Shown here piece by piece: positions 29,977 through 45,681 of a DNA stretch of 61,255 nt. The notes beneath the pieces were generated by a model. The model worked only from the letters and a program-made list of their open reading frames with translations. It was not told where the DNA came from and ran no database searches. The stretch covers positions 1 to 61,255 of the forward strand of contig JAFXZJ010000015.1 of NCBI GenBank assembly GCA_017541305.1. Direction: 5' to 3'. The stretch is from Clostridia bacterium. Lineage in GTDB: Bacteria > Bacillota > Clostridia > Christensenellales > CAG-138. The position numbers and the translations under genes are program-made. Each line of letters opens with the position of its first letter. Within the stretch, counting starts at the first letter, position 1.

Positions 29977-30004
29977 TGTGAATACAACCCGCTCAAATTT
30001 TCGC

Positions 30005-30033
30005 TTGTATTTACAGTCAATTTTTGATATCAT
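30005..30033 (+). promoter_or_regulatory. dnaA promoter
   Basis: TTGTAT (30005-30010), a 17 bp spacer and TATCAT (30028-30033). Confidence 0.6.
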
Positions 30034-30039
30034 AATCGA

Positions 30040-30065
30040 GGGAACAGCTCACGTTCCCTTTTTAT
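30040..30065 (+). terminator. Terminator-like hairpin in the dnaA leader
   Basis: GGGAAC, 7-base loop, GTTCCC and TTTTTAT lie right at the expected dnaA transcript start. It may cause early termination (attenuation) or protect the 5' end. It might instead terminate read-through from lgt. Confidence 0.5.
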
Positions 30066-30125
30066 CGCAAAAAATCGCGCCGCGGCTTTCCTTATTTTTT
30101 CGCGGCTTTCGTTATCGGGGGAAAT

Positions 30126-31466
30126 ATGATTTCGGCACAGGTCATCTGGGCAAAGGCGCTTCCCGTGCTGCAGGAAGAGATGACGCCCACCAGCTATAAA
30201 ACCTGGATAATGGACATAAGGCCCATTTCCGTTGAGGGCAATACGCTAATATTGATGGCTCAGAACGAGCTTTATCTTACCACGCTCCGTCAGTTCTATT
30301 CCAACATAGTGACCGACTGCGTGAACAAGGCGAACAATTCCAATTACACCGTCAGCTTCATCGTTAAGGAAGAGGCCGAGGCCGCCGTTTCCGTGCCCGT
30401 TCAGGGCGTTGGCGACAAGGGGGTCTTCTTCGGCGTGCAGTCGAAATACACCTTTGACACGTTTGTTACCGGCGAATCCAACCGCTTTGCCCATGCCGCC
30501 GCGGTGGCCGTTGCCGACAACCCCGCCTCCGCCTATAACCCCCTTTATATCTATGGCGGCTCGGGCCTGGGCAAGACGCACATACTCCACGCGATAGGCA
30601 ATTACGTGCACGAGATGCACCCCGAATTCAATATCTGCTTCGTTTCGAGCGAGGATTTCACGAACGACGTTATCTCCGCCATCAAATACGACACGCGCGA
30701 GGAGCTGAGAAAGAAATACCGCAATCTCGACCTGCTGCTGGTGGACGACATACAGTTCATAGGCGGCAAGGAAGCGACCGAGATGGAGTTCTTCAACACC
30801 TTCAACGCGCTGCACGGCTCCAACAAGCAGATCGTGATCACGTCCGATAAATCGCCCAAGGATCTGCCCTTTCTGCAGGAGCGCCTGCGCACCCGCTTTT
30901 CGTGGGGCATAACCGCCGACATAAAGCCGCCCGAGGTCGAGACCCGCGTTGCGATACTCAAGGGCAAGGCCGAAAGGGACAACGTCGACATAACCAACGA
31001 AGCGCTGCTGTATATGGCCGAGCAGTTCTCGTCCAACGTGCGCGAGCTTGAAAGCTGCTATAACCGAGTGGTGCTCTATGCCGATTTTTCAAAGCGCGCC
31101 TCCATCGACCGCAGCTTCGTCGAGGTGGTGCTGAAGGATTACGTCTCCTCCGAGGGCAAGCACATGGTCACGCCCGAGCTGATCAAGCAGGTCACGGCCG
31201 ATTATTTCAACATCACCGTGGAGGAGCTGGTCTCCACAAGGCGCGATAAGCGCATATCCGTCCCCCGCCACGTGGCGATGTATCTTTGCCGCACGCTGAC
31301 CAACATTTCCTATCCCGATATAGGCAAGGCCTTCGGCGGCAAGCATTATTCCACCGTCATGTATTCCTGCGACCAGATCGCCGGCGATATCGGGCAGAAG
31401 CTGGATATCACCACCGCCATCGACGATATCACCAACAGGCTTACCAACGACCTGACCACCAAGTGA
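30126..31466 (+). CDS. dnaA: Chromosomal replication initiator DnaA
   Basis: A 446-residue AAA+ initiator. Domain I is at about 1-85, Walker A is GGSGLGKTH (near 145), Walker B is LLLVDDIQF, and domain IV (about 345-446) binds DnaA boxes. The domain IV signature is usually GGRDHTTV; here it is GGKHYSTV (K406-H-Y-S-T), so the Asp-His pair that contacts the box in E. coli DnaA is His-Tyr. dnaN does not follow; a tRNA does. I see no cluster of TTATCCACA boxes on either side, so this need not be the origin. The start follows GGGGGAAA. Confidence 0.95.
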   Translation: MISAQVIWAKALPVLQEEMTPTSYKTWIMDIRPISVEGNTLILMAQNELYLTTLRQFYSNIVTDCVNKANNSNYTVSFIVKEEAEAAVSVPVQGVGDKGVFFGVQSKYTFDTFVTGESNRFAHAAAVAVADNPASAYNPLYIYGGSGLGKTHILHAIGNYVHEMHPEFNICFVSSEDFTNDVISAIKYDTREELRKKYRNLDLLLVDDIQFIGGKEATEMEFFNTFNALHGSNKQIVITSDKSPKDLPFLQERLRTRFSWGITADIKPPEVETRVAILKGKAERDNVDITNEALLYMAEQFSSNVRELESCYNRVVLYADFSKRASIDRSFVEVVLKDYVSSEGKHMVTPELIKQVTADYFNITVEELVSTRRDKRISVPRHVAMYLCRTLTNISYPDIGKAFGGKHYSTVMYSCDQIAGDIGQKLDITTAIDDITNRLTNDLTTK

Positions 31467-31467
31467 G

Positions 31468-31489
31468 CTTTTGCCGCGCGGCAAAAAAG
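31468..31489 (+). terminator. Hairpin after dnaA
   Basis: CTTTTGCCGC pairs with GCGGCAAAA directly after the stop. A short T-run follows 6 nt later. Confidence 0.45.
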
Positions 31490-31503
31490 AGCGTTTTTCG
31501 CAC

Positions 31504-31532
31504 TTGACAAACGCCGGCGGCGGGATTAAAAT
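31504..31532 (+). promoter_or_regulatory. tRNA-Gly promoter
   Basis: TTGACA (31504-31509), a 17 bp spacer and TAAAAT (31527-31532), 12 bp before the mature tRNA. Confidence 0.9.
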
Positions 31533-31544
31533 AGTTAAGTCCAA

Positions 31545-31618
31545 GCGGGTGTAGCTCAGTGGCAGAGCGTCGGCTTCCCAAGCCGATAATGTGGGTTCGA
31601 TTCCCATCACCCGCTCCA
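31545..31618 (+). tRNA. tRNA-Gly(CCC)
   Basis: A 74-nt cloverleaf with CCA encoded. The acceptor stem is GCGGGTG/CACCCGC with discriminator T. The D-arm is GTAGCTCAGTGGCAGAGC. The anticodon stem TCGGC/GCCGA holds the loop TTCCCAA, giving anticodon CCC (reads GGG). The T-arm contains GGTTCGATTCC. Parts of its 3' half recur downstream at 31666-31828. Confidence 0.97.
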
Positions 31619-31655
31619 AACAAATCGGGGAGGCATCCGCCTCCCCGATTTGTTT
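31618..31655 (+). terminator. tRNA-Gly terminator
   Basis: A 17 bp perfect stem (AACAAATCGGGGAGGC against GCCTCCCCGATTTGTT) with the loop ATCC, starting at the last base of the tRNA. Confidence 0.85.
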
Positions 31656-31665
31656 GTATCTTGTT

Positions 31666-31828
31666 ATGGGAATCGAAGGGAAGCGGCGTTCGTCCTGTGG
31701 ACGAAAAAACGCCGCTTCCCCGGCTTTTGTCAAAAGGCGCGAGAACGCAGCGCGGAGCGCAAGTTCGAGACGCATCTTTTGCAAAAGGATTCCCATCACC
31801 CGCTTAAAGATGGATGGGAATCGAAGGG
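31666..31828. repeat. Fragments of the tRNA-Gly 3' end and hairpins
   Basis: The 15-mer ATGGGAATCGAAGGG occurs at 31666 and 31814 as direct repeats; 12 of its bases are the reverse complement of the tRNA T-arm. A 17-base copy of the tRNA 3' end (GATTCCCATCACCCGCT) lies at 31788-31804. Between them is a long hairpin with the stem GGGAAGCGGCGTT/AACGCCGCTTCCC. This is the pattern of an old integration site or a tRNA-derived repeat. No integrase is near. Confidence 0.6.
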
Positions 31829-31843
31829 CGCAGTAAAACAATC

Positions 31844-31873
31844 CTGACCATCAGATCTGTCCCCATGGTTAGT
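31844..31873 (-). repeat. REP-like palindrome
   Basis: CTGACCATCAGATCTGTCC, CC and ATGGTTAGT. It has the inverted orientation of the RAYT-flanking REPs and lies 30 bp from structured repeat copy 2. Confidence 0.7.
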
Positions 31874-31902
31874 GCTTTGCATCAGGATCATATCAGACGA
31901 CT

Positions 31903-32135
31903 GATGAGGGGATTCATTATTATTGTTCCCTTTATGATATTTAAGCCCTTTAAGTTGCCGATTCCTTTAGAAGCCGGGATATGTCTCGCGGGAGCGGCCT
32001 TAGGTGCTTGGTACCCGCGTTCCCCTTCGCAGCATAGCTGCTCGGCGTTCGCTGGAATCGTAACACTGTTACGATTCCTTGACGCTCACGCTATCGCGGC
32101 GCGGCGACGGCCTCCGAAAAATTTGCATGCATTTT
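31903..32135 (-). repeat. Structured dispersed repeat, copy 2
   Basis: This is the reverse complement of 1-317, about 85 bp shorter because the nested hairpin of copy 1 is missing. It contains a perfect 25-base palindrome at 32054-32078 (arms GGAATCGTAACA and TGTTACGATTCC). The arms differ from copy 1 at most outer positions, yet pairing is kept. 32136-32253, up to the esterase gene, shows no gene or clear structure. Confidence 0.75.
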
Positions 32136-32253
32136 TCGATTAGCTAAACCGAAGGTTTTGCGACGCCTTACGACGCTCGCTTTGCTCGCTTAATACCCCT
32201 CTTAGTTTGGGGTGCTTGGCACGGTCGCCCCGGCAGTTTGGGTTGCCCGGCTC

Positions 32254-33006
32254 TCAGAACTCCAGATAATCCATGAACACGGGTATGCGCTGCTCCCAAT
32301 AGGCCTCGGAATGTTTGGCTCCGGGCACGATGCGGGCGGCGACGGACACGCCCCGGCCGGCAAGCCTTTTGGCGGTATTGAACATCGCCTTGAGATCGGG
32401 CGTCACATTGTCATCCTCGGCGTCGCCGTAATCCATATAGACGAGCGTGGGGCGGGCGAATTCGGTTTTTTCTATCATTTCATTCATATTTTTGGGGCTG
32501 ACCCAGAAGCAGGGCGAAAGCGCCGCCGCGCGGGAGAACACATGGTTGTATTCCGCCGCGGCATAGAGCGCCATGAGGCCGCCCATGGAGCTGCCCGCGA
32601 TCATCGTGTGCGCGCGGTCGGGCAGGGTGCGGTATTCCCCGTCGATCATGGGCTTGAGCTCTTTTGTGAACCAATCCATCGTCGCCCTGCCCAGCCCCTC
32701 CATGGAGCCCAGGCCCGCTGCCTTGAAATCCCACGGCGAATATTCGTTCAGCCGCCTTAAGCCTTCGGGATTGCATTCGACGGCGACGAGTATCAGCCGG
32801 CGCCGCGACCGCTCGAGGTATTCCTTCATCCCCCAGCTTTTGCCATAGGTGGCGTGTGAATCGAAAAACACGTTGTGCCCGTCGAACATATACAGCACGG
32901 GATAGCGCTCTTCGCTGTTTTTATAGCCGCGCGGGAGGTAAACGTAAAGCCTGCGGGGCTCCTTTGTGGGAAGCTGCGGAATGGTGATCCTGCCGATCTT
33001 TATCAT
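32254..33006 (-). CDS. Putative esterase, alpha/beta hydrolase
   Basis: A 250-residue protein of the esterase D/putative esterase family. The nucleophile elbow is GSSMGG, the acid lies in the YGDAEDDN segment and the His is in GAKHSEAYW. YVYLPRGYKNSEERYPVLYMFDG is the usual N-terminal strand set, shown here across about residues 19-41. No signal peptide is visible, so it is cytosolic. I start at 33006 (MIKIGRIT), after a weak GAAGG; an upstream ATG at 33045 is 12 nt after the -10 box. It is divergent from the PPTase-NRPS operon and might act on its product or on siderophore-like esters. Confidence 0.82.
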   Translation of the reverse strand: MIKIGRITIPQLPTKEPRRLYVYLPRGYKNSEERYPVLYMFDGHNVFFDSHATYGKSWGMKEYLERSRRRLILVAVECNPEGLRRLNEYSPWDFKAAGLGSMEGLGRATMDWFTKELKPMIDGEYRTLPDRAHTMIAGSSMGGLMALYAAAEYNHVFSRAAALSPCFWVSPKNMNEMIEKTEFARPTLVYMDYGDAEDDNVTPDLKAMFNTAKRLAGRGVSVAARIVPGAKHSEAYWEQRIPVFMDYLEF

Positions 33007-33057
33007 ATCTTTGCCTTCGCTTTGCCGAAAAAGCGATCCTTTCATGTTGATGGGGAT

Positions 33058-33086
33058 ATTTTACCACGCATCAAGCGCCCGGGCAA
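33058..33086 (-). promoter_or_regulatory. Esterase promoter
   Basis: On the minus strand: TTGCCC (33086-33081), a 17 bp spacer and TAAAAT (33063-33058). It is back to back with the PPTase promoter. Confidence 0.5.
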
Positions 33087-33100
33087 CGCAAAATTCGGTA

Positions 33101-33129
33101 TTGTAAAGCGCGGTGAAATATGGTATATT
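33101..33129 (+). promoter_or_regulatory. Promoter of the PPTase-NRPS operon
   Basis: TTGTAA (33101-33106), a 17 bp spacer and TATATT (33124-33129). No terminator is seen from here to about 43900. Confidence 0.65.
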
Positions 33130-33162
33130 TTCAGAATGGGATATTTTGGAGGCCCGCAAAGA

Positions 33163-33762
33163 ATGAAGCTTTATCTGCTGGATATTTCGGAACTGACCGA
33201 AGAGGATATCCGCATGGTGCGCCGCTTTTTTCCCCGGCGGGCCGAGCGGGCGGACCGTTTTGTTTTTGAGAAGGACCGTTTGAGCGCGATAGGCGCGGGA
33301 GTGCTGCTGCGGCGCGTGCTTAAGATCGACGAGCGCGCGATCGAAACGGAGGCTTCGGGCAGGCCGCGCATACCCGGCGGCCCGGGCTTCAGCCTTTCGC
33401 ACAGCGGCGGCAGATGCCTGCTGGCGGTGGGCCGGGGCAGTATAGGCGCGGACATAGAGCGCCTGGACGAAAGCAATCTTGCGGCCGCCGAAAGCGTGAC
33501 GACAAAAAAGGAGCTTGAATGGATGCGTGAAAACGCTTTGGAGCGCTTTCACGTGCTGTGGACCCGCAAGGAGAGCGTCTATAAGGCCGTCGGCGGCCAT
33601 GACGATCCGCGGGATATCCCCGCGCTTGAGGAGGATATCCCAAAGGGCTTCCATATAAAAAGCATCGTTTCCGAGGGCTTTGCGCTGAGCGTGTGCTCGC
33701 AGGAGGAGCCGGGCAAGCTTGAAACAACACATACTGAACGAACATGTATCACGGAGGTATAA
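33163..33762 (+). CDS. Sfp-type 4'-phosphopantetheinyl transferase
   Basis: A 199-residue enzyme that loads the phosphopantetheine arm of CoA onto carrier proteins. The Mg-binding motif GADIE is at 95-99 and the WxxKES motif at 133-138 (WTRKES); SLSHSGG lies at 77-83. It is a little shorter than Sfp (224). The start at 33163 follows TTGGAGG; the longer frame has no such site. The NRPS starts 2 nt after its stop, which gives an obvious substrate: the two T domains. Confidence 0.95.
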   Translation: MKLYLLDISELTEEDIRMVRRFFPRRAERADRFVFEKDRLSAIGAGVLLRRVLKIDERAIETEASGRPRIPGGPGFSLSHSGGRCLLAVGRGSIGADIERLDESNLAAAESVTTKKELEWMRENALERFHVLWTRKESVYKAVGGHDDPRDIPALEEDIPKGFHIKSIVSEGFALSVCSQEEPGKLETTHTERTCITEV

Positions 33763-33764
33763 CT

Positions 33765-36700
33765 ATGGATCGCTTTCCGCTTTCGAAAACGGAATACGGC
33801 ATCTACGTTGAGCAGATGACCGCACGCAACACCGCCTATAACAATCCGCTGACCGTCGCGCTGCCGGACGACGTCGATATCGAAAAGCTTCGCGCCGCGC
33901 TGCACGCGGTGATCGAGGCGCATCCCTATTTCAAGACCGGCTTCGGCACGGATGAGAACGGGGACGTTTACAAATATATCCGCAGCGCGGATATCGATAT
34001 AGACGTGATCGAGGCGGAGCGGTTCGACGTTGACGGGCTGACGCGGGTGTTCGACCTTGAAAACGATATCCTCTGCCGCTTCCATATCATCGTCACGCCC
34101 GAAGGCAAGCTTTTCTTCTTTGACATTCATCATATAATAGTCGACGGCACCACGGCGGGCATATTCTTAAGGGAGCTGAACGCCGCATATCACGGCGATC
34201 GGCTTGAGCCGGAGCCCTTCACCGCAAACGACTTTGCCCTTGAGGAGCAGGCGCGCCTTGCCTCGGACGAATATAAAGCGGCGCGCGAATATTACCTTGG
34301 CGTGTTCGGCGGGGCGGACGCGGATTCCAAGCTTTACCGCGACGCGAACGGCCGCGGGCAGCGCGCGAACGAGCTGGTGTATGACCTGAAGCTGGTGGAT
34401 TCCCCCATGCTTAAGGCCCTTGCTTCGAAGCACGGCGTGAAGCTGAGCACCGTTTTCAACGCGGCCTTTGCAAAGCTGCTTGCCGCGCACACGGGCAGCG
34501 GCGAGGCGCTTTACACCACCGTGCACAACGGCAGGGACGCGCGCCTGAAGCGCACCTTCGGCATGTTCGTGAAGACCTATCCCGTGCTGGCAAAATGCAC
34601 GGACGAAACCCCCGTGGGCGATTTTCTCAAGGGCCTGGACGAGCAGATAGCCCAAAACCGCAGATACGATATCTATTCCTTTGCCGACCTTTGCGCCGAG
34701 ACCGGCCTGCATCCCGACGTGCTGTTTGCTTATCAGGGCGATATGCTTACCGAGATGCCCTTCTGCGGGAACGAGGCCGTGCCCGTCTATTACGATCCCA
34801 AGGACACCAAGGAGGGCTTTGAGCTGACCGTTTGGAGATACGGCGACCGCTTTACCGCCCACGCGATCTACCGCAAATGCGACTATGACGACGCGGTGAT
34901 CGAGGGTATGTGCGAGAGCCTTGACAAGATACTTTTCGATATGCTGACCGCAGACCGGCTTGCGGATATCGACATGCTTACCGACGCGCAGCGCGCGGAG
35001 CTCGATTCCTATAACGGCGCCGAAAGCGAGCCCGACCGCGCCGATATAGTGACGCAGTTCAGGCGCGTCGCGCAGGAATACCCCGATCGCACCGCCGTGG
35101 TGTGCGGGGGCGCATCGCTCACCTATCGCGAGCTTGACCGCCTGAGCGAGAATACGGCCGCGTTCCTTAAGGAAAAGGGCATTGGGCGCGGGGACGTGGT
35201 ATCCATACTGATACCCCGCTGCGAATATATGGCGGCCGCGCCGCTGGGCGTGCTGAAGGCCGGCGCGGGCTATCAGCCCCTCGATCCCGGCTATCCTCCC
35301 GAAAGGCTCGACTTTATGATGAAGGACGCGGGCGCGAAATACCTGATCGCCGACCGCGGGCTTTTGGACCGCGTGCCCGGGCGCGAATGCCCCGTGCTGT
35401 TCACCGACGGGATAAGCGCGCTGCCCGAAGCCGAAAGGCTCGATATAGTTCCCGATCCCGGCGACCTGTTCATAATGCTTTACACCTCCGGCTCGACGGG
35501 AGTGCCCAAGGGCGTGATGCTGGAGCACCGCAATCTTTCCGCCTTCTGCGGCTGGTTCAGGCGCTTCTATTCGCTTGGGCCCGGCTGCCGCGCGGCGGCT
35601 TACGCCAGCTTCGGCTTTGACGCCAACATGATGGACACCTATCCCACACTTACCTCGGGCGCGGAGCTGCACATAATCGTCGAGGAGATACGCCTTGACA
35701 TGCTTGCGATAAGGGATTATTTCCAAACGAACCGCATCACCCACAGCTTTATGACCACGCAGGTGGGCCGCCAGTATGCCGAGCTGTTCCCCGACGCGGA
35801 ATATCCGCATTACCTTTCGGTGGGCGGCGAAAAGCTGGTGCCCGTGGAGCCGCCGAGGACCTATGGGCTTTACAACTGCTATGGCCCCACCGAATGCACC
35901 GTATTCGTGAACCACTTCCCCGTGGACAGGGTGTATGAGCGCGTGCCCATAGGCCGCCCGCTTTCCACCTCAAAGCAATACGTGGTGGATAAGCACATGC
36001 GCCTTGTGCCCGTGGGCGTGCCCGGCGAGCTGATAATAGCCGGTCATCAGGTGGCCAGGGGCTATCTGAACCGCCCCGAACAGAACGAAAAGGCGTTCAT
36101 CAAAAACCCCTTCTGCGATAAGGAGGGCTTTGAGCGCGCCTATCGCTCGGGCGACGTCGTGAGGATGCTGCCCGGCGGCACAGTGGATTTCGTGGGCCGC
36201 AACGACGGCCAGGTCAAGATCCGCGGCTTCCGCATAGAGCTTTCGGAGGTAGAGGGCATAATACGCAAATTCGACGGCATAAAGGACGCAACCGTGCAGG
36301 CCTTTGACGAAAAGGGCGGCGGCAAATTCATTGCGGCATACGTCGTTGCGGACGAGGCGGTGGATATCGGCGCGCTGAACGCCTTCATCGCCAAAAACAA
36401 GCCCCCCTACATGGTGCCCGCGGTGACGATGCAGATAGACCGCATACCTCTCAATCAGAATCAGAAGGTGAACAAGCGCGCCCTGCCCGTGCCGGTCAGG
36501 CAGGCCAAGGAGGCCGAGCCGCCCGAAACCGAATCCCAGAAGCGCATATTCGAGCTTGCGGCAAGGGTGATCGGCTCGCGCGAGTTCGGCGTGAACACCG
36601 ATATTTTCGAGGCGGGGCTTACCTCGATAGGCGCGATAAAGCTTAACGTGCTGCTTTCAAACGAATTTTCGACGCCCGTTTCGATAGGCGATCTTAAGGA

Positions 36701-39700
36701 CAACCCCACGGTGAAGGCGCTGGAGGCCTTCCTTGCGAAAAGCGAGGCCGCCGAAGAATACGGGGTGCTTGACGATTATCCGCTTTCGGAAACGCAGAAC
36801 GGCATATTGGTGGAATGCATATCCAAGCCCGGCTCCACCGTCTATAACATCCCCTACCTCTTCAGGCTTTCGGACGGGATCGATACCGAAAGGCTCAAAA
36901 AGGCCATGGAGGCCGTTATAAACGCGCATCCCTACCTGAAAATAAAGCTCTTTGCGGATGAGGACGGCGAGATACGCGTCTGCCGCGACGATCCCAAGGC
37001 GCCCGTCGTGGATATCGTCGACGCCGAAAAGCTGCCCGAAAACCTTGTGACCCCATTCGAGCTGTTCGGCGGCAGGCTCTACCGCATGACGATATTCAGT
37101 ACCGCGGAGGGCAATTACCTGTTCCTTGAGCTGCATCACATAATCTGCGACGGCACGAGCGAGGCGGTGCTGATAGAGGATATCAATTCCGCATACGCGG
37201 GCAAGGCCGTGGAGACCGAAAAATACACCGGCTTCGAGGCCGTGCTGGACGAAAAGAAGGCAAGATCGGGCGAAAGGTATGAGAAGGCCAAGGCTTATTA
37301 CGCGGGCATATTCGACGGGCTCGATCACGATTTCCTGCCCCCCAGGGACGTGCGCGGCGTCAAGCCCGGCACCGGCGCGCTTTCGCTCATATCCGGGCTG
37401 GATATGGGCCGCATAAAGGATTTCTGCAGGGCGAACCGCTTTACCGTGAACGCCTTCTTCAACGCGGCGTTCGGCCTGGTGCTTTCGAAATACAATTTCA
37501 AGAACGAGGCACTTTACGTCACCATCTACAACGGCAGGAACGATTCGCGCCTGGCGCGCAGTGTGACCATGCTGGTGAAGACCCTGCCCGTTTACGTGCA
37601 GCTTGACGGGAACGCCAAGGTGACCGAGCTGATCGCGGATACCGGCGAGCAGCTTATGAACAGCATGACCAACGACATATACTCGTTCGGCGAGATATCG
37701 CGCGCGTTCGAGATACCCATGGACGTGATGTTCGTTTATCAGGGCGAAAGCTTCACCTTCGATTCGATAGGCGGCCTGCCCGCCGAAAGCATACCGCTCA
37801 AGCTGAGCGACACCAAGGCGCCCATATCCTTCTACATATTCGAAAAGGACGGCAGGGCCGAATTCCGCTTTGAATACCGCTGCGATATGTATTCCGAGCG
37901 CTTCATGCGCGCCTTTGCCGAATGCTTTGAGAAGGCGTCGGACGAGTTCATGAAAAAGCGCCTCGTAAAGGAAGTGAGCATACTTACCGACCGCGTGAAG
38001 GAGCGCATAGCCGGCTTTAACGCCACGGAGGGCCCCGTGCCCGATACCACCGTGAACAAGCTGTTCGAGGCAGTGGCCGCGCGTCTGCCCGACAAGACCG
38101 CGGTCATAGCCAACGGCGAACGCCTGACCTATCGCGAGCTGAACGAGCACGCCAACCGCATTGCGCACGCGCTGCTGCGCGAGGGCGTGAAGCCCGACGA
38201 CATGGTGGGCCTGATGGCGCCGAGGGCGGTTTGGGCATATGCCGGGCGCGAGGGGATCTTGAAATCGGGCGGCGCGTTCCTTATGCTGGCCCCGGATTAT
38301 CCCGATGACCGCGTGCAGTACATAATAGAAAATTCCGAGGCAAGGCTGATCGTCACCATGCGCGATATCGCGCTTGAGCGCAGGGAGCTGTTCGAGCGCT
38401 GCGGCCTTAAGGTGCTGGTGATCGAGGAGCTTATAAAGAGCGGCGATATAACGAATCCCGATCCCGCGATCACCCTGCATAACCTTGCCTACTGCCTGTA
38501 CACCTCCGGCTCCACCGGCAGGCCCAAGGGCGTTATGATAGAGCATCATTCGCTCGTTAATTTCGTCACCGAAAACCCGCACAACCTGTTTGAATACGGG
38601 CATCTGCACGGCATTGACGTTACGCTGAGCTTTGCGGCGCTGACGTTCGACGTTTCGGTGTTCGAGCACACGACGGGCCTTTACGGGGGCAGGACGGTGG
38701 TGATAGCCACCGAGGACGAGATACACAATCCCAACCTGATGGCAAAGCTGATACTGGAAAACGGCGTGGAGGCGGCCTTCTTCTCGCCCTCCTATGCCAA
38801 CAACCTTTTGGACTTCCCCGAGGCGGTGGAGGCCCTGCGCAGCATGAAATCGCTGATACTGGGCGGCGAGGCGCTGCCCGCGCCCCTTTACAAGCGCATG
38901 CGCGCGCTGGGCATTAAGGCCGAGATCTATAACGGCTACGGCCCCACCGAAACGACCATATTCATAACTGTGGATCACGTGACGGACGACCGCATAACCA
39001 TAGGCGGCCCCGTGGCTAACACCAAGCTTGCGATATTCGACAAATTCGACAACGAGCTGCCCCCCTTCGTGCCGGGCGAGCTGATACTCTGCGGGCTTAA
39101 CGTGGGCCGCGGCTACGTCAAGCTTGACAAGATGAACGAGGAAAAATACATTCGCTTTGAGGGCATGCCCGCCTACCGCAGCGGCGACCTTTCGCGCTGG
39201 AGCGAGGACGGGCGCATACTGTTCATGGGCCGCATGGACAATCAGGTGAAGCTGCGCGGCCTTAGGATAGAGCTTGACGAGATAGAGAACGTGATGAACA
39301 CCTATCCCGGCATGCTGCGCAGCCTGGTGCTGGTAAAGGAATCCGAGCGCGAGGGGCAGTTCCTGTGCGCCTATTTCACCGCCGAGCACAGGGTGGATAT
39401 TGCCGGCCTTAAGGCGCATATCGGCAGGAGCCTTGCCAAATACATGATCCCCTCGGTTTATATGCAGCTTGATTCGATCCCGATGAACAAGAACGGCAAG
39501 ATCGACAAGAAGGCGCTGCCCGAGCCCGTGGTCGAGGGCGTGCAGCGCGAGATAAAGCGCCCCGCGAACGAGCTTGAAAGCAGGATAGTTTCGATATTCG
39601 CAAAGGCGCTGGGGCATAAGGAAATGAGCACGGACGACGATTTCTTCGAGAACGGCGGCACTTCGCTTTCGGCCTCGAAGGTGGCTATGCTGGCGCTTTC

Positions 39701-40991
39701 GATGAACCTGCCCATCGCCTATAAGGACGTGTTCGAATTCCCGACGGCGGAGGCCATGGCAAAGCACCTGGGCGCCCTGAGCGCCGAGGCCGCGCCCGAG
39801 GAGAAGAAGGACGAGCGCGCGATACACGAAAACGCGCTGCGCTGCAACGTGAACGAAAACGTGGACGGGATCGCTTCGGAAAGGCCCCTTGGCCGCGTGC
39901 TGCTTGCGGGCGCAACGGGCTTCCTGGGGGCGCACGTGTTCAAGGCGCTGCTTGACAGGGGCGCCGAGACGATCGCCTTCTGCCGCTCGGGCGAGCTGGA
40001 TCCCGACACGCGCCTTCGCGCGATGACGGCATACTACTTCGATTCGCCGCTCGACGACGAGATCGGGAAGCTGGTCAGGGTTTACGACGCGGATATCACT
40101 TCCGAGGGGCTTGAAAAGCTGCTTGAGAACGAAAGCTTCGACACGATAATCAACTGCGCGGCGTGCGTGAAGCATTTTGCCAAGGACGACATAATCGAGC
40201 GCATAAACGTGGGCGGCGTGAAAAACCTGATAGCGCTTGCAAAGGCAAAGAACGCGCGCCTGATACAGATATCCACCCTGTCCGTTGCGGGAGAGGACGT
40301 GGACAACACGTTCGATCCCTCGGTGAAGCTGCACGAGAACGCGCTCGATTTCGGGCAGGATATCTCGAACAAATACGTCAACTCCAAGTTCATGGCCGAA
40401 AGGGCCGTGCTGGAGGCGATAGATTCGGGCCTTGACGCCAAGATAATAAGGGTGGGCAACCTGATGGGCAGGCAGTCGGACGGCGAATTCCAGATCAATT
40501 CCGTTACGAACAGCTTTATTCGCAGCCTTAAGGCTTACCGCGTGCTGGGCTGCTTCCCCGTTTCCTCCTGCGATCAGACCGTGGATTTCTCGCCCATCGA
40601 CGAGGTGGCCGAGGCGATACTCCGCCTTGCCTGCACCGGCAGGGACTTCACCCTGTTCCACTGCGCGAACGCGCACGAGGTGCAGATGGGCGACGTGATC
40701 GAGGCCATGAACCGCTATGGCTTCCCCGTTAAGATCGTGAGCGACGCGGAATTCAAGGCAAAGCTGGGCGAGGCCATTGCGGACGAATCGCGCAGCATGC
40801 TGGTGTCGGGGCTTTTGACCTATTCCTCGAGCGACAGCCGCCTGCGCAGGTATATAAAGACCGACAATACCTTCAGCATCAAGGCGCTTTACCGCCTGGG
40901 CTATAAATGGCCCATCACCGACGAGGCCTATCTTATGCGCGTTATAGAGTCGTTGGATTCACTGGGATTCTTCGACCGTGACGATATCTGA
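33765..40991 (+). CDS. Dimodular nonribosomal peptide synthetase, C-A-T-C-A-T-R
   Basis: A 2408-residue synthetase. C1 has HHIIVDG at 122-128. A1 has LYTSGSTGVPKG at about 572. T1 carries the pantetheine Ser S954 (GLTSIGA). C2 has HHIICDG from 1124. A2 has LYTSGSTGRPKG at about 1578. T2 carries S1967 (GGTSLSA). The terminal reductase has GATGFLG from 2049 and Y2204-x3-K2208. Release should therefore give an aldehyde (or alcohol). The leading C domain suggests N-acylation of residue 1. By-eye pocket residues are DAMQSGCVFK for A1 and DVFSIGGIFK for A2; both are mostly neutral, and I do not assign amino acids. The start at 33765 follows GGAGG. Confidence 0.95.
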   Translation: MDRFPLSKTEYGIYVEQMTARNTAYNNPLTVALPDDVDIEKLRAALHAVIEAHPYFKTGFGTDENGDVYKYIRSADIDIDVIEAERFDVDGLTRVFDLENDILCRFHIIVTPEGKLFFFDIHHIIVDGTTAGIFLRELNAAYHGDRLEPEPFTANDFALEEQARLASDEYKAAREYYLGVFGGADADSKLYRDANGRGQRANELVYDLKLVDSPMLKALASKHGVKLSTVFNAAFAKLLAAHTGSGEALYTTVHNGRDARLKRTFGMFVKTYPVLAKCTDETPVGDFLKGLDEQIAQNRRYDIYSFADLCAETGLHPDVLFAYQGDMLTEMPFCGNEAVPVYYDPKDTKEGFELTVWRYGDRFTAHAIYRKCDYDDAVIEGMCESLDKILFDMLTADRLADIDMLTDAQRAELDSYNGAESEPDRADIVTQFRRVAQEYPDRTAVVCGGASLTYRELDRLSENTAAFLKEKGIGRGDVVSILIPRCEYMAAAPLGVLKAGAGYQPLDPGYPPERLDFMMKDAGAKYLIADRGLLDRVPGRECPVLFTDGISALPEAERLDIVPDPGDLFIMLYTSGSTGVPKGVMLEHRNLSAFCGWFRRFYSLGPGCRAAAYASFGFDANMMDTYPTLTSGAELHIIVEEIRLDMLAIRDYFQTNRITHSFMTTQVGRQYAELFPDAEYPHYLSVGGEKLVPVEPPRTYGLYNCYGPTECTVFVNHFPVDRVYERVPIGRPLSTSKQYVVDKHMRLVPVGVPGELIIAGHQVARGYLNRPEQNEKAFIKNPFCDKEGFERAYRSGDVVRMLPGGTVDFVGRNDGQVKIRGFRIELSEVEGIIRKFDGIKDATVQAFDEKGGGKFIAAYVVADEAVDIGALNAFIAKNKPPYMVPAVTMQIDRIPLNQNQKVNKRALPVPVRQAKEAEPPETESQKRIFELAARVIGSREFGVNTDIFEAGLTSIGAIKLNVLLSNEFSTPVSIGDLKDNPTVKALEAFLAKSEAAEEYGVLDDYPLSETQNGILVECISKPGSTVYNIPYLFRLSDGIDTERLKKAMEAVINAHPYLKIKLFADEDGEIRVCRDDPKAPVVDIVDAEKLPENLVTPFELFGGRLYRMTIFSTAEGNYLFLELHHIICDGTSEAVLIEDINSAYAGKAVETEKYTGFEAVLDEKKARSGERYEKAKAYYAGIFDGLDHDFLPPRDVRGVKPGTGALSLISGLDMGRIKDFCRANRFTVNAFFNAAFGLVLSKYNFKNEALYVTIYNGRNDSRLARSVTMLVKTLPVYVQLDGNAKVTELIADTGEQLMNSMTNDIYSFGEISRAFEIPMDVMFVYQGESFTFDSIGGLPAESIPLKLSDTKAPISFYIFEKDGRAEFRFEYRCDMYSERFMRAFAECFEKASDEFMKKRLVKEVSILTDRVKERIAGFNATEGPVPDTTVNKLFEAVAARLPDKTAVIANGERLTYRELNEHANRIAHALLREGVKPDDMVGLMAPRAVWAYAGREGILKSGGAFLMLAPDYPDDRVQYIIENSEARLIVTMRDIALERRELFERCGLKVLVIEELIKSGDITNPDPAITLHNLAYCLYTSGSTGRPKGVMIEHHSLVNFVTENPHNLFEYGHLHGIDVTLSFAALTFDVSVFEHTTGLYGGRTVVIATEDEIHNPNLMAKLILENGVEAAFFSPSYANNLLDFPEAVEALRSMKSLILGGEALPAPLYKRMRALGIKAEIYNGYGPTETTIFITVDHVTDDRITIGGPVANTKLAIFDKFDNELPPFVPGELILCGLNVGRGYVKLDKMNEEKYIRFEGMPAYRSGDLSRWSEDGRILFMGRMDNQVKLRGLRIELDEIENVMNTYPGMLRSLVLVKESEREGQFLCAYFTAEHRVDIAGLKAHIGRSLAKYMIPSVYMQLDSIPMNKNGKIDKKALPEPVVEGVQREIKRPANELESRIVSIFAKALGHKEMSTDDDFFENGGTSLSASKVAMLALSMNLPIAYKDVFEFPTAEAMAKHLGALSAEAAPEEKKDERAIHENALRCNVNENVDGIASERPLGRVLLAGATGFLGAHVFKALLDRGAETIAFCRSGELDPDTRLRAMTAYYFDSPLDDEIGKLVRVYDADITSEGLEKLLENESFDTIINCAACVKHFAKDDIIERINVGGVKNLIALAKAKNARLIQISTLSVAGEDVDNTFDPSVKLHENALDFGQDISNKYVNSKFMAERAVLEAIDSGLDAKIIRVGNLMGRQSDGEFQINSVTNSFIRSLKAYRVLGCFPVSSCDQTVDFSPIDEVAEAILRLACTGRDFTLFHCANAHEVQMGDVIEAMNRYGFPVKIVSDAEFKAKLGEAIADESRSMLVSGLLTYSSSDSRLRRYIKTDNTFSIKALYRLGYKWPITDEAYLMRVIESLDSLGFFDRDDI

Positions 40992-41022
40992 AAAAACTGC
41001 CGAAAGGAAAGGATAAAACAAG

Positions 41023-41322
41023 ATGGAAGCTGTTATTGAAAAGAACGGGACCACCGTGACCGTCGTCCCCGAGGGAAGGCTTGACACCGTGACGAGCGCC
41101 GCGCTGAAGGAGCAGCTTGCGTGCTGCGAGACCGCGGGGCTGGATTTTGTATTCGATTTTGAAAAGGTCGATTACATCTCATCCGCGGGATTGAGGCTGC
41201 TCGTTGCCGTGCAGAAGAAGACCAGGGCCGAGGGACACTCGATGTCGATCAAAAACATCAATCCCGTGGTGAGAGAGGTGTTCCGCGTTTCGGGCTTCAA
41301 CAAGGCCTTCACCGTGCTATGA
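41023..41322 (+). CDS. STAS-domain anti-sigma factor antagonist
   Basis: A 99-residue RsbV/SpoIIAA-like protein. VDYISSAGLRLLV holds the candidate phospho-acceptor serines S53/S54. In partner switching the unphosphorylated form binds a kinase/anti-sigma factor. It starts 31 nt after the NRPS with AGGAAAGGA upstream and overlaps the sensor phosphatase gene by 4 nt, so both are made together. It is probably the substrate of both catalytic domains of the next protein. Confidence 0.92.
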   Translation: MEAVIEKNGTTVTVVPEGRLDTVTSAALKEQLACCETAGLDFVFDFEKVDYISSAGLRLLVAVQKKTRAEGHSMSIKNINPVVREVFRVSGFNKAFTVL

Positions 41323-43412
41323 GATCGAGTATACGCAAGAAGCTGCTGCTGCTTATCGCGGCGCTTTCGCTTGCGCTGATCGCCGCTTCCGTGCTGATAT
41401 CTTCAAAGCTCTATTCCGATTCGCTCAAAAGAGGCGCGATGCTGAGCTGCACCGAAGCGGCGGATTCGCTTGCCTCAAGCATCGATTCGGAGCATTATAG
41501 CTTCATAACGGGCTATGCCGACAAGGTGAAGGCCGTGTATGAGGAGAACCGTGAGGAGCTTGAGGAAGCTTCCGGATACGAATTCGAAAGCTTTGAAAAG
41601 CGCGAGGAGTATTACAGCCGCTTTACCGAGGGCATATTCCCGCCCAGGCACGGCCTTGGCCTGTCATACGAGATGCTGCTGTTCAACACGGAATATCACC
41701 TTGTGCTTGACAGCATGGATATGCTTTCATACACGGGCGGCATGGAGACCGCTTCGGTATTCTATTACGACCGCGCAAACGGGAACCTGGTCTATCTGAT
41801 CGACCGCATGCCCGAGGGCTCGGTGAGATACAATTTCCCCGTCAGCGTTAAGAAGCCCGGCGACGAAAGGCTCAAGGCTGCGCTTGACGGGTGCGTTTCC
41901 GTCACCACGGAGGACGGCGTGGATTACGCCTCGCTCTCGCCCGTGCCCTGTTCCGACGGCCGCGTATTCGTTTATTTCACAAAGCATGCCGCCGAGATAC
42001 CCGGCAGCGTGCGCCTGTTTTCTTTCTACACGTTTGCCATACTGCTTGGCGCGACCTTGGCGATAGGGCTGGTGGTGCTGCTGTTTGCCGACAGGCTGAT
42101 AGTCAAAAACATAAAGAAGCTTTCGGCGGCTTCCGAGCGCTTCACGTCGGAGATAGGCGGCGGCAGGCCCGAAAAGGTCTCGGCGGATATCGGGGCCGGG
42201 GATGAGATAGGCGATCTTTCGAACAAGTTCGACCTGATGCAGGATTCGATACTGGGCTATATTTCGAGCCTTGCCGAAAAGACCGCGCGTGAGGAGAAGA
42301 TAAACGCCGAGCTTGAGCTGGCGGCCCGCATACAGTCCGAGGCCCTGCCGCGCGGCGGCCTCAGCGCGGGCCGGGCAAGCCTTGCAAGCTTTTTAAAGCC
42401 CGCAAGAGAGGTGGGCGGCGACCTTTACGATTATTTCATGCTTGACGAAAGCCGTATGTTCTTCTGCCTGGCCGACGTTTCGGGCAAGGGGATACCCGCC
42501 TCGCTGTTCATGATGCGCGCGAAGGAGCTGATAAAATCCCTCGCTGTCTCATGCGGCTCCCTGGGCGAATTCGCGTTCACGCTGAACAACGAGCTGTGCG
42601 CCGGCAACGAGGAGAGCATATTCATAACCGCCTTCTTCGGCGTGCTGGACACGGCGAGCGGCGTGATGTTTTTCCTGCGGGCGGGGCACGAGCAGCCCAT
42701 GCTGAGGCGCGGGGGCAAGGTCACGGCGATAGGCGAGGAATCGAATTTCGTGCTGGGCGTTTTCGAGGACGCCGAGTTCATTCCCGACGAGATCGCGCTT
42801 TGCGGCGGCGACGCCCTGCTGCTGTTCACCGACGGGCTTAACGAGGGCATAAACGACCGGGCCGAGGAATTCGGCTATCAGCGCATCGCAAATACGCTTG
42901 CCGGGGCGCAGGGCGATATCACCGGCGCGCTTTATCACGCGCTTTGCGGCTTCTGCGGGGACGCCGAGCAGTTCGACGACGTGACGATGCTTGTGCTGAC
43001 GATGGACGACGATCTTACGCTGGAGATAGACGACCCGGATTACGATGACATAACAAAAGTGACGGACGCGGTGCTTGGCGCGCTTTACGGCTTCGATCCC
43101 GAGCGCGTATCCGAGACGGGCATACTCATAGACGAGGTGATGAACAACCAGATAAGCTACGGCCTTGAGGGCGCCGCCGCGCCGCGCATCACCGTGCGGC
43201 TGAGGCTTTGCGAAAGCGAAGCGGAGCTGGTTTTCGAGGACAACGGCAGGGCGTTCGACCCGCTTTCGGACGTGACCGACGAGGCGGCGGCGCTTTCCGA
43301 GGGCGGCTTCGGCATACGGCTCGTGAAGTCCATGTCGGATTCGCAGCACTATGAGCGCGATGGGGATATAAACCGCCTGACGCTGAAAAAGTGCCTGCAA
43401 AAAAAGCTTTGA
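41319..43412 (+). CDS. Membrane sensor with SpoIIE phosphatase and RsbW-like kinase domains
   Basis: A 697-residue protein. Helix 1 is at about 9-28, an extracytoplasmic sensor domain at about 30-225 and helix 2 at about 227-250, then a HAMP-like linker. The PP2C/SpoIIE phosphatase is at about 340-555 (AREVGGDLYDYFML, CLADVSGKGIPASLFM, LLLFTDGLNEGIN). A GHKL ATPase of the anti-sigma kinase type is at about 565-695 (ETGILIDEVMNNQISYGL, EDNGRAFDP, GGFGIRLVKSM). So opposing kinase and phosphatase activities on the STAS protein sit in one chain under an external signal. No sigma factor is encoded near. Confidence 0.93.
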   Translation: MRSSIRKKLLLLIAALSLALIAASVLISSKLYSDSLKRGAMLSCTEAADSLASSIDSEHYSFITGYADKVKAVYEENREELEEASGYEFESFEKREEYYSRFTEGIFPPRHGLGLSYEMLLFNTEYHLVLDSMDMLSYTGGMETASVFYYDRANGNLVYLIDRMPEGSVRYNFPVSVKKPGDERLKAALDGCVSVTTEDGVDYASLSPVPCSDGRVFVYFTKHAAEIPGSVRLFSFYTFAILLGATLAIGLVVLLFADRLIVKNIKKLSAASERFTSEIGGGRPEKVSADIGAGDEIGDLSNKFDLMQDSILGYISSLAEKTAREEKINAELELAARIQSEALPRGGLSAGRASLASFLKPAREVGGDLYDYFMLDESRMFFCLADVSGKGIPASLFMMRAKELIKSLAVSCGSLGEFAFTLNNELCAGNEESIFITAFFGVLDTASGVMFFLRAGHEQPMLRRGGKVTAIGEESNFVLGVFEDAEFIPDEIALCGGDALLLFTDGLNEGINDRAEEFGYQRIANTLAGAQGDITGALYHALCGFCGDAEQFDDVTMLVLTMDDDLTLEIDDPDYDDITKVTDAVLGALYGFDPERVSETGILIDEVMNNQISYGLEGAAAPRITVRLRLCESEAELVFEDNGRAFDPLSDVTDEAAALSEGGFGIRLVKSMSDSQHYERDGDINRLTLKKCLQKKL

Positions 43413-43430
43413 CGATAAAAGGAGAGTAAT

Positions 43431-43883
43431 ATGGAAGACCTGCGTTTCATCACTCTGCGCGAAGAGCCGCGGCTTAAGGAGCGCGCGGCGGAGTGGTTCT
43501 GCTCCAAGTGGCACGTGCCCAAGCAGGCTTATATCGCCTGCATGGACGCCTATCTTTCGGGCAGTACCGAATACGGCTGGTACCTTTGCCTGGAGGGCGG
43601 GCGCATAGTGGGCGGCATGGGCGTCATACAGAACGATTTTCACGACCGCAGGGATCTCTTTCCCAACGTGTGCGCGGTTTTCACCGAGGAGGACCGCCGC
43701 GGCCGCGGCATTGCCGGAAGACTGCTTGATCTGACCGTGGCCGATCTGCGCGCACACGGCATAAGCCCCGCCTATCTCGTTACCGACCACACCGGCTTTT
43801 ACGAGCGTTACGGCTGGGAATACTATTGCTCCGCGCAGGGCGACGGCGAGGAAGGGCTCACAAGGGTGTACGTTCACAGGTGA
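43431..43883 (+). CDS. GNAT-family N-acetyltransferase
   Basis: A 150-residue acetyltransferase. VCAVFTEEDRRGRGIAGRLL is motif A with the acetyl-CoA loop (RRGRGIA), and YLVTDHTGFYERYGWEYYC is the C-terminal part. Substrate is unknown. It follows the sensor kinase by 18 nt with GGAG and ends the NRPS-led gene run. It could modify the peptide product or its free amine for self-protection, which is inference; many GNATs are unrelated to their neighbours. Confidence 0.87.
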   Translation: MEDLRFITLREEPRLKERAAEWFCSKWHVPKQAYIACMDAYLSGSTEYGWYLCLEGGRIVGGMGVIQNDFHDRRDLFPNVCAVFTEEDRRGRGIAGRLLDLTVADLRAHGISPAYLVTDHTGFYERYGWEYYCSAQGDGEEGLTRVYVHR

Positions 43884-43908
43884 ACCGTTAAAAAACTTCA
43901 AAAAACAC

Positions 43909-43961
43909 TTGACAGCTTCATTCTAACGTGTTAGAATGAAGCTATTCTAATACAGTAGAAT
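43909..43961 (+). promoter_or_regulatory. Promoter with overlapping BlaI-type operators
   Basis: TTGACA (43909-43914), a 17 bp spacer and TAGAAT (43932-43937). A perfect inverted repeat with 14 bp arms (AGCTTCATTCTAAC and GTTAGAATGAAGCT, 43914-43943) covers the spacer and -10. A second one, ATTCTA/TAGAAT (43944-43961), follows. The BlaI-like protein encoded next is the likely ligand, giving autorepression. Confidence 0.85.
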
Positions 43962-43973
43962 GGAGGACGTCCC

Positions 43974-44348
43974 ATGCGCTCGCCCAAGATATTCGAAAGC
44001 GAATACCGATTCTGCCTCATACTCTGGGCCAACGAGCCCATCAAGTGCCGCGAGCTGGCCGCGCTGTGCTCGGAGCAGCTGGGCTGGAAAACGACCACGA
44101 CCTATACTGTGATAAAGCGCCTGAGCGAGCGTGGAGTGCTGAAAAACGAAAACTCGGTCGTCACCTCGCTCGTGACCAAGGAGCAGGTGCAGGCGGACGA
44201 AATAGACGAGCTTGTCGAAAAGAAATTCGAGGGCTCGCTGCCGGCGTTTCTTGCGGCCTTCACAGAAAACTGTGCGCTTTCCGACGCCCAGATCGACGAG
44301 CTGCAGTGCATGATCGACCGCTGCAGAAGGAGGGGACAGGATGGCTGA
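43974..44348 (+). CDS. BlaI/MecI-type transcriptional repressor
   Basis: A 124-residue winged-helix repressor of the BlaI/MecI/CopY family. The HTH is at about 20-55 (KTTTTYTVIKRLSERGVL), and the C-terminal helices form the dimer interface and carry the cleavage region. GGAGG lies upstream. It overlaps the M56 peptidase gene by 8 nt. By analogy the peptidase relieves repression after sensing a signal. Confidence 0.9.
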   Translation: MRSPKIFESEYRFCLILWANEPIKCRELAALCSEQLGWKTTTTYTVIKRLSERGVLKNENSVVTSLVTKEQVQADEIDELVEKKFEGSLPAFLAAFTENCALSDAQIDELQCMIDRCRRRGQDG

Positions 44349-45579
44349 GCTGTTCCGTCACGTGCTGGATAACGCCGTTTCCGCGGGCTGGCTCGTGCTG
44401 ATCGTGATGCTCGTAAGGCTTTTATTCAGGCGCGCGCCAAGGAGCCTTTTCCCCGTGCTGTGGGGGATCGTGGGCTTAAGGCTGATACTGCCCTTCACGA
44501 TACCCGCGCCATTCAGCCTTGTGCCCGACTTGGGCTTCGATCCCCATAATGCCGCGCAGGGCTTCATGCGGCTTGCGCCCTATATCTGGGCGGCGGGCGC
44601 CGCGGCGGTGCTCGCATACGGGCTGATAAGCTATTTACGCCTTCGCATCAAGCTGCGCACCGCCGTGCGAAAGCAGCACAGGGTGTATATGAGCGAATTC
44701 GCGCCATTCCCCTTCGTATTGGGGATATTCCGTCCGCGCATCTATCTCCCCTTCGGCCTTGAGCCCGAGGACGAGGCAAACGTGCTGCTGCACGAGCGCG
44801 CACACATAAAGCGGCTGGATCATATCGCAAAGCCCGCGGCCTTTGCGCTGCTTGCGGTGAACTGGTTCGATCCGCTCCTTTGGGCCGCCTATATCTCGCT
44901 CTGCCGCGATATGGAGCTTGCCTGCGACGAGGCCGTTTCGATCAAGCTGGGCGATATCGAAAGGGCTTCGTATTCTCAAACGCTGCTTTCGGTAACGCTC
45001 TCGGGCAGGAGCGTTTCCGTCTGCCCGCTTGCCTTCGGCGGCGGCAGCCTGAAGCGGCGCGTTAAGCTCATCACCTCGGGCAGGCGGCCCGCGCTGTGGG
45101 CGAAATATGTCTCGGCCGCGCTCGTGCCGATATTCGCGCTGTGCTTTTTGACCGATCCCGCACGCGAAACGCCCGCGCCCGAAATCAGCTCAAATATCGA
45201 ATTCGAGCGCTTTATCGACGCGTCCTCGAAAAAACCGCCCGTGCGTGAAAAATCGAGCCGTGCTTCATACCCTTCGCCCGACACGGTAACGGTTGAAATA
45301 CCCGTTTTCGACCTTGACGGGGCGGAGCTTCCGCCGGAGGACGCTTCCGAATTCAGCTTTATGCTGCTCGTTTACTCGCCGAACGAAAGCGGCGAATACG
45401 TATTCACACCCGCCGTTACCGCCGAATGCGCCGAAAGGCTCGGCTTGTCCGAAGGCTCTTCCCATATTTTGAACGTGCTTACCGACCGCTCCGGCGCCGG
45501 GCCTTATGGCGGCGCCGAAGGACTCGTCAATGGCTGTCTTTATCTCGTACTGCCCATAGAAGAGGGCCCGACCGTCTGA
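44341..45579 (+). CDS. BlaR1-like M56 membrane metallopeptidase
   Basis: A 412-residue membrane protein with four or so helices. The zinc site is H151-E-R-A-H155, and DMELACDEAV supplies the third ligand. The C-terminal extracytoplasmic part (about 275-412) is short and has no SxxK/penicillin-binding motifs, so beta-lactams are not the likely signal. It pairs with the BlaI-like repressor and the three ABC genes downstream. Confidence 0.88.
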   Translation: MAELFRHVLDNAVSAGWLVLIVMLVRLLFRRAPRSLFPVLWGIVGLRLILPFTIPAPFSLVPDLGFDPHNAAQGFMRLAPYIWAAGAAAVLAYGLISYLRLRIKLRTAVRKQHRVYMSEFAPFPFVLGIFRPRIYLPFGLEPEDEANVLLHERAHIKRLDHIAKPAAFALLAVNWFDPLLWAAYISLCRDMELACDEAVSIKLGDIERASYSQTLLSVTLSGRSVSVCPLAFGGGSLKRRVKLITSGRRPALWAKYVSAALVPIFALCFLTDPARETPAPEISSNIEFERFIDASSKKPPVREKSSRASYPSPDTVTVEIPVFDLDGAELPPEDASEFSFMLLVYSPNESGEYVFTPAVTAECAERLGLSEGSSHILNVLTDRSGAGPYGGAEGLVNGCLYLVLPIEEGPTV

Positions 45580-45607
45580 TCCCAAACCAAACCCAAGCAG
45601 CCGTTTT

Positions 45608-45637
45608 CCCCGCCCGAAAAAAGCAAGCCGGGCGGGG
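45608..45637 (+). terminator. Hairpin between the regulators and the ABC genes
   Basis: CCCCGCCCG pairs with CGGGCGGGG around a 12-base loop. The T-run (CTTTTT) comes 16 nt later, so it may only reduce read-through into the exporter genes. Confidence 0.45.
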
Positions 45638-45681
45638 GTGTGATAAGTTTGCTCTTTTTCGGTAAAAAAGGAGGCGATAAT

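Follow-up and report, generated by a model that had tools for sequence, protein, structure and literature searches.

The nonribosomal peptide synthetases (NRPSs) of gut bacteria yield dipeptide aldehydes that are isolated as pyrazinones, as described for ruminopeptin in the available text of PMC12327764, where such aldehydes are also said to be hard to isolate; dipeptide aldehydes of gut bacteria are described as potent protease inhibitors (PMC10039858, available part). In the partner switch SypE/SypA of Vibrio fischeri, a kinase and a PP2C phosphatase activity oppose each other in one protein, which sets the phosphorylation of a STAS protein, and the output is not a sigma factor (PMC10120452, available part). 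Here a stretch of 61,255 nucleotides from a Clostridia bacterium (GenBank assembly GCA_017541305.1, contig JAFXZJ010000015.1), referred to as the window, is analysed, in which a 4'-phosphopantetheinyl transferase (PPTase), an NRPS with a terminal reductase, a STAS protein and a membrane sensor with phosphatase and kinase domains are encoded in one conserved cassette (Table 1). A functional link between the NRPS and the partner switch is likely, because the genes are spaced as in one unit, the STAS, phosphatase and kinase residues are intact, and the combination recurs in rearranged gene orders.

The likeness to SypE/SypA concerns the single-domain STAS protein under one kinase/PP2C protein and a STAS output, predicted for the window, other than a sigma factor, whereas SypE is a kinase-REC-PP2C response regulator of biofilm formation (PMC10120452, available part) and the window protein is a membrane sensor of an NRPS cassette, with PP2C preceding the HATPase and with no REC domain detected by Pfam at E 0.001. 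The order of an RsbU-like PP2C domain followed by an RsbW-like HATPase in one chain is that of Rv1364c of Mycobacterium tuberculosis. Rv1364c additionally contains a STAS domain and has a different type of sensor, whereas the STAS protein of the window has a gene to itself and the window sensor is membrane-bound. The structure of Rv1364c (PDB 3ke6) is the best fold match of the sensor, in fold lists that are dominated by the PP2C part. Indigoidine is an NRPS product. Its production in Vogesella indigofera is controlled by TciK/TciR through a regulator with an RsbW-like domain, which differs from the window in being a REC-RsbW two-component system in a bacterium without an RsbV homologue (PMC12826045, available text).

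When considering the NRPS, the terminal reductase fits the dipeptide-aldehyde release of the ruminopeptin-type gut enzymes, although a partner switch is unmentioned in the available text of PMC12327764 and the window product is predicted from the genes. The best curated NRPS model is that of aureusimine synthesis (NF047350, 1417 bits, below the cut-off of 2500). AusA/AusB (NF047350, NF047349) also combine a reductase NRPS with a PPTase, whereas the NRPS and PPTase of the window score far below both NCBIfam cut-offs. We know of no partner switch beside ausAB.

Table 1. Positions of the cassette genes and of other features in the window
Feature	Position	Strand	Evidence
PPTase, 4'-phosphopantetheinyl transferase, 199 residues, first cassette gene	33163..33762	+	Pfam ACPS, 39.7 bits (cut-off 25)
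NRPS, C-A-T-C-A-T-R, 2408 residues from the likely start	33765..40991	+	Pfam, sequence
Terminal reductase domain of the NRPS, marker for family searches	39861..40988	+	Alignment, tree
STAS protein, 99 residues	41023..41322	+	Pfam STAS, 56.7 bits; NCBIfam ant_ant_sig above cut-off
Membrane sensor, SpoIIE phosphatase and RsbW-like HATPase	41319..43412	+	SpoIIE, 134 bits; HATPase_c_2, 49.5 bits
GNAT acetyltransferase	43431..43883	+	Pfam
Promoter-like site (TTGACA-17-TAGAAT) overlapping a palindrome (15-pair inverted repeat)	43909..43945	+	Fold z -4.9 for 43884-43973

The gap between the NRPS and STAS genes is 31 nucleotides, the STAS and sensor genes overlap by 4 nucleotides (ATGA), and 18 nucleotides separate the sensor gene from that of the GNAT protein; this spacing resembles that of a single transcription unit. 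A sequence-only reading of the window had listed the genes from the PPTase to the GNAT protein with the domains given in Table 1, and this list is borne out by Pfam. It had also noted no terminator between the NRPS and STAS genes, in agreement with the absence of a terminator-like site on the + strand of 40991-41023 and with the folding of the RNA of 40971-41045, which is no better than that of shuffles (z 0.31). The same reading had described the NRPS and the switch as fused, which they are not: the genes are merely adjacent and nothing is joined to the NRPS. A promoter-like site at 33101-33129 was dropped as uninformative, because 10 such sites occur in 30000-46000 and 7.4 are expected.

The catalytic residues of the STAS protein, the phosphatase and the kinase are intact. 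The candidate phosphoserine of the STAS protein is Ser54 within the YISSAGL motif (codon at 41182), which by SpoIIAA numbering is the likely phosphorylated residue, and this serine is conserved in 76/76 STAS proteins from NRPS loci. The profile matches of the STAS protein are anti-sigma antagonists. In the N-terminal part of the sensor, two hydrophobic helices, as read by eye, flank an outer region of about 200 residues, and this part is followed by a HAMP-like linker (Pfam HAMP under cut-off), the PP2C/SpoIIE domain (about 340-562) and the RsbW-like HATPase (about 575-693). The metal-binding aspartates D368, D386, D505, D553 and D554 of the PP2C domain are invariant in alignments of 7 and 24 sensors, as are E606 and N610 of the GHKL kinase N-box in the aligned sensors, and the kinase consensus is retained in the sensor, stand-alone and MATE-fused HATPase groups.

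Judging by its presence across the clade, the differing gene orders, the tight spacing and the phosphatases from several parts of the tree, the link between NRPS and switch recurs and is not peculiar to the genome of the window. In a family sample of 103 genomes, the NRPS (threshold E 1e-100) is found in 12 genomes and a sensor-like protein (threshold E 1e-15) in 62, and in 8 of the 12 NRPS-bearing genomes a STAS protein and a PP2C-HATPase sensor adjoin the NRPS. The order is PPTase-NRPS-STAS-sensor in G000, G081, G087 and G090 and PPTase-STAS-sensor-NRPS in G056, G074, G075 and G077, the PPTase of G056 being found only by a later profile search. Among the remaining four, G032 has a STAS protein together with a MATE exporter that is fused to an HATPase (MATE-HATPase), G068 has a STAS protein by a shorter NRPS, and G026 and G102 have neither at the NRPS. 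The rough sensor density predicts such a neighbour at about 1.1% of loci, and the binomial chance of 8/12 is then about 1e-13, a figure that uses rounded genome sizes and ignores relatedness; the sensor hits number 91 on recount, against 96 in an earlier calculation.

The pairing extends beyond the family. A reductase-domain scan of the genomes of 84,980 species gave at least 548 confirmed relatives, and the best 80 of these, many on short contigs, were analysed; they come from bins of Clostridia, Lachnospiraceae, Erysipelotrichaceae, Bacillales, Acholeplasmatales and Selenomonadaceae among others, many of gut or rumen origin. At least one switch part, MATE-HATPase included, is present in 68/80 loci (STAS in 50, PP2C in 45, both in 42 and MATE-HATPase in 52), and in 47 of the 54 loci that extend for 6 kb or more downstream. 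Any part within the examined stretch was counted, up to 10 kb from the NRPS; the profiles came from loci of this same set, and Pfam was used to check a subset. Across the order, evenly sampled, the reductase is found at E 1e-60 in 19/396 genomes. Of the 13 close ones (E < 1e-140), 10 have STAS and PP2C-HATPase, G032 and G281 have MATE-HATPase and G026 has neither at the NRPS; among the six distant ones, some with short stretches, switch genes are seen in G359 only. The pairing, which the sequence-only reading had called unusual, is common in this NRPS clade, and non-sigma outputs of partner switches are known, as for SypE/SypA (PMC10120452, available part).

The trees are quick ones, in which long branches are flagged. 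In the reductase tree of 112 non-redundant domains, a switch part or MATE-HATPase occurs in 83/98 members of the clade of the window versus 0/14 outside it. The order of the NRPS and switch genes varies widely. Neighbours mostly overlap or lie almost end to end, gaps above 200 nucleotides being present in 3/17 NRPS-STAS pairs and 5/30 MATE-HATPase-STAS pairs. In the phosphatase tree, the starred set that holds the window sensor has 35 of its 36 members at NRPS loci; the exception is from G026, whose reductase NRPS is on another contig. A window-type sensor-STAS pair is seen in this genome at L191:9000-11404 (contig C6), with no NRPS within 19 kb. Phosphatases at other NRPS loci come from several parts of the tree, and the linked/unlinked label changes 6 times with one copy per locus, 3 of these changes being forced by starred branches, and 8 times when second phosphatase copies of some loci are included. 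The simplest reading is a repeated recruitment of phosphatases to NRPS loci, which favours a functional link.

The MATE exporter with the RsbW-like HATPase domain is usually encoded right beside the NRPS where it occurs in the best 80 of the at least 548 relatives. Away from these NRPSs, MATE-HATPases have partner-switch genes nearby in 19/32 cases versus 0/16 for plain MATEs, as found with a profile that was built from NRPS-linked copies; L263-L293 are MATE-HATPase genes distant from reductase NRPSs and often near STAS and PP2C genes. Between MATE-HATPase and STAS, L078:5800-8504 encodes two further proteins, one of the radical SAM/SPASM type and one that lacks a Pfam match. ClbM (PDB 4z3n), the MATE exporter of the colibactin pathway, is not known to have an HATPase tail. 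Among the papers listed by the literature searches, which did not cover the original cluster reports, whose figures may show such genes, none describes a MATE-HATPase fusion or a partner switch beside a gut NRPS, and none describes partner switching directly controlling membrane transport. The window itself has no MATE match. The neighbouring branches L078 and L105 of the reductase tree possess MATE-HATPase, which suggests that this gene was lost from the cassette of the window's lineage, the direction of the change being putative.

The cassette is probably explained by a path from the sensor through the STAS protein to post-translational control of peptide-aldehyde production or export. The PPTase would activate the two carrier domains of the NRPS, which would couple two amino acids and release the product by reduction, giving a dipeptide aldehyde that may be N-capped. 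The sensor would run both halves of the phosphorylation cycle of the STAS serine, the HATPase phosphorylating and the PP2C domain dephosphorylating it, with the balance set by the outer domain, and the dephosphorylated STAS protein would bind an effector, so that production or release is controlled post-translationally and no sigma factor is freed. In most relatives the likely effector would be the MATE exporter, gated by STAS through its RsbW-like tail, because this protein is usually encoded beside the NRPS; the cassette of the window's lineage lacks it, and the STAS protein there must therefore have a different target, which may be an exporter encoded away from the cassette. The gating of production, release or response by an external signal through STAS, as the sequence-only reading had it, remains the best reading, and the relatives indicate the MATE exporter as the gated part. 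More tentatively, and with somewhat less than even confidence, it is proposed that dephosphorylated STAS docks on the MATE-fused RsbW-like domain and thereby gates release of the NRPS product, that this module is reused away from NRPSs, and that the window has a derived cassette with another partner. The association, which is seen here in a gut or rumen bacterium, suggests that gut bacteria may control the timing of making or releasing such molecules. The timing of dipeptide-aldehyde production or release would be easier to understand with a sensor and switch devoted to it, and Ser54 of STAS and the outer domain of the sensor would be concrete handles for turning production on. If MATE-HATPase is indeed the output, membrane transport would be under the direct control of partner switching.

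Several observations weigh against this explanation. In an even sample of the phylum, a switch part is found in 0/10 other genomes with a reductase NRPS (11 loci), and two of these, G479 and G598, sit inside the clade of the window, where 15/98 members, some on short contigs, have no switch part; these absences are soft, because only the best 3 or 4 candidates per genome were scored in the genome searches. Each label change in the phosphatase tree could stand for a gain or for a loss. MATE-HATPase is beside the NRPS in 0/7 rows of the smallest starred set of the reductase tree that holds the window, so the gating of an exporter is extrapolated from related loci. One MATE-HATPase tail resembles SpoIIAB/RsbW chains weakly (E 0.2-0.5), with unrelated chains ranking higher. 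The genome of the window has an unlinked MATE-HATPase (contig C18, L192:7796-9598) with no NRPS or switch gene within 17 kb, which has near full-length matches in 3/13 genomes of the genus, itself included; at E 1e-20 it is absent from the cassette-bearing sisters G081 and G090 and is a fragment in G087, and it is not favoured as the exporter of the window.

Transcriptional control, in which the STAS protein acts on a sigma factor, or on an anti-sigma kinase, encoded elsewhere and ties the NRPS to sporulation or stress, is considered unlikely. The matches of the STAS protein to anti-sigma antagonist profiles would suit such a role, and a possible target exists: genes for a STAS protein, an HATPase and a 183-residue sigma-like protein on contig C59 of the same genome (L231:4156-5442) are read as a SpoIIAA-SpoIIAB-SigF-like operon by order and sequence. 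The statement of the sequence-only reading that there is no sigma factor thus holds for the cassette and not for the genome. A further set on contig C56 (L195:4254-6146), which may also be counted in favour of such control, encodes a STAS protein, an HATPase and a 389-residue protein with a STAS start and, by eye, a kinase-like region, and no adjoining sigma gene was seen. Against a sigma output, Pfam, run on 18 proteins of the window and not on the remaining ones, gives no sigma domain; a SigF-like query, with other sigma types not searched, gave a single weak match at the 112 NRPS loci (L061, E 6e-4), on the opposite strand and outside the cassette; and the partner that recurs in addition is MATE-HATPase.

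A direct action of STAS on the NRPS or PPTase, by which synthesis instead of export would be switched, is in keeping with the exporterless order PPTase-NRPS-STAS-sensor at 8 loci, and at one more that is preceded by a plain MATE gene; plain MATE genes without HATPase near L064, L065 and L070 imply that export may be separate. By Pfam, however, neither the NRPS nor the PPTase has a recognised domain for STAS binding, and besides the sensor kinase, fused or separate, the other RsbW-like domain at the loci sits on MATE, and such direct action is judged quite improbable. That the genes are chance or hitch-hiking neighbours without a functional link would agree with the 0/10 of the phylum sample and with the commonness of sensor-like proteins in the family, but it is hard to reconcile with recurrence in varied gene orders, phosphatases of different branches, tight spacing and the rough probability for the family alone, and is very improbable.

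The window genes match the dipeptide-aldehyde type in having an NRPS of two modules with a terminal reductase and an accompanying PPTase; the Pfam make-up of the NRPS is two Condensation, two AMP-binding and two PP-binding domains and a terminal NAD_binding_4 reductase. The reductase fits the aldehyde or pyrazinone product of the sequence-only reading, of which the pyrazinone is uncertain, because the first condensation domain retains an intact HHxxxDG motif and could cap the amine. PDB matches of the first A domain confirm the family only, and a substrate call by eye against GrsA positions was dropped as too uncertain. The PPTase gene is preceded by GGAGG and has the same position in G081, G087 and G090, the three same-genus genomes with the NRPS. 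The longest NRPS open reading frame is 33744-40991; the start is most likely the ATG at 33765, preceded by GGAGGT, and not 33744, and the alignments begin at residue 8 for two of the three same-genus relatives and at residue 2 for the other one.

The GNAT protein, which had been counted as a member of the unit, has a relative (phmmer E 1e-8) at 1/112 loci, the window itself; it was rejected as a part of the system and is probably a bystander outside the module. The promoter-like palindrome downstream is the probable start of the next, separate transcription unit, being followed by a BlaI-type repressor (43974-44348) and an M56 (BlaR1-like) protein (region 43909-45579). BlaI/M56 pairs near the NRPS occur in the window, L062 and L063 (3/112 loci) and are not favoured as a part of the system. 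Further along, at 49711-52224, the window encodes an alpha-amylase with CBM26 and dockerin domains, which suggests a cellulosome-like starch system.
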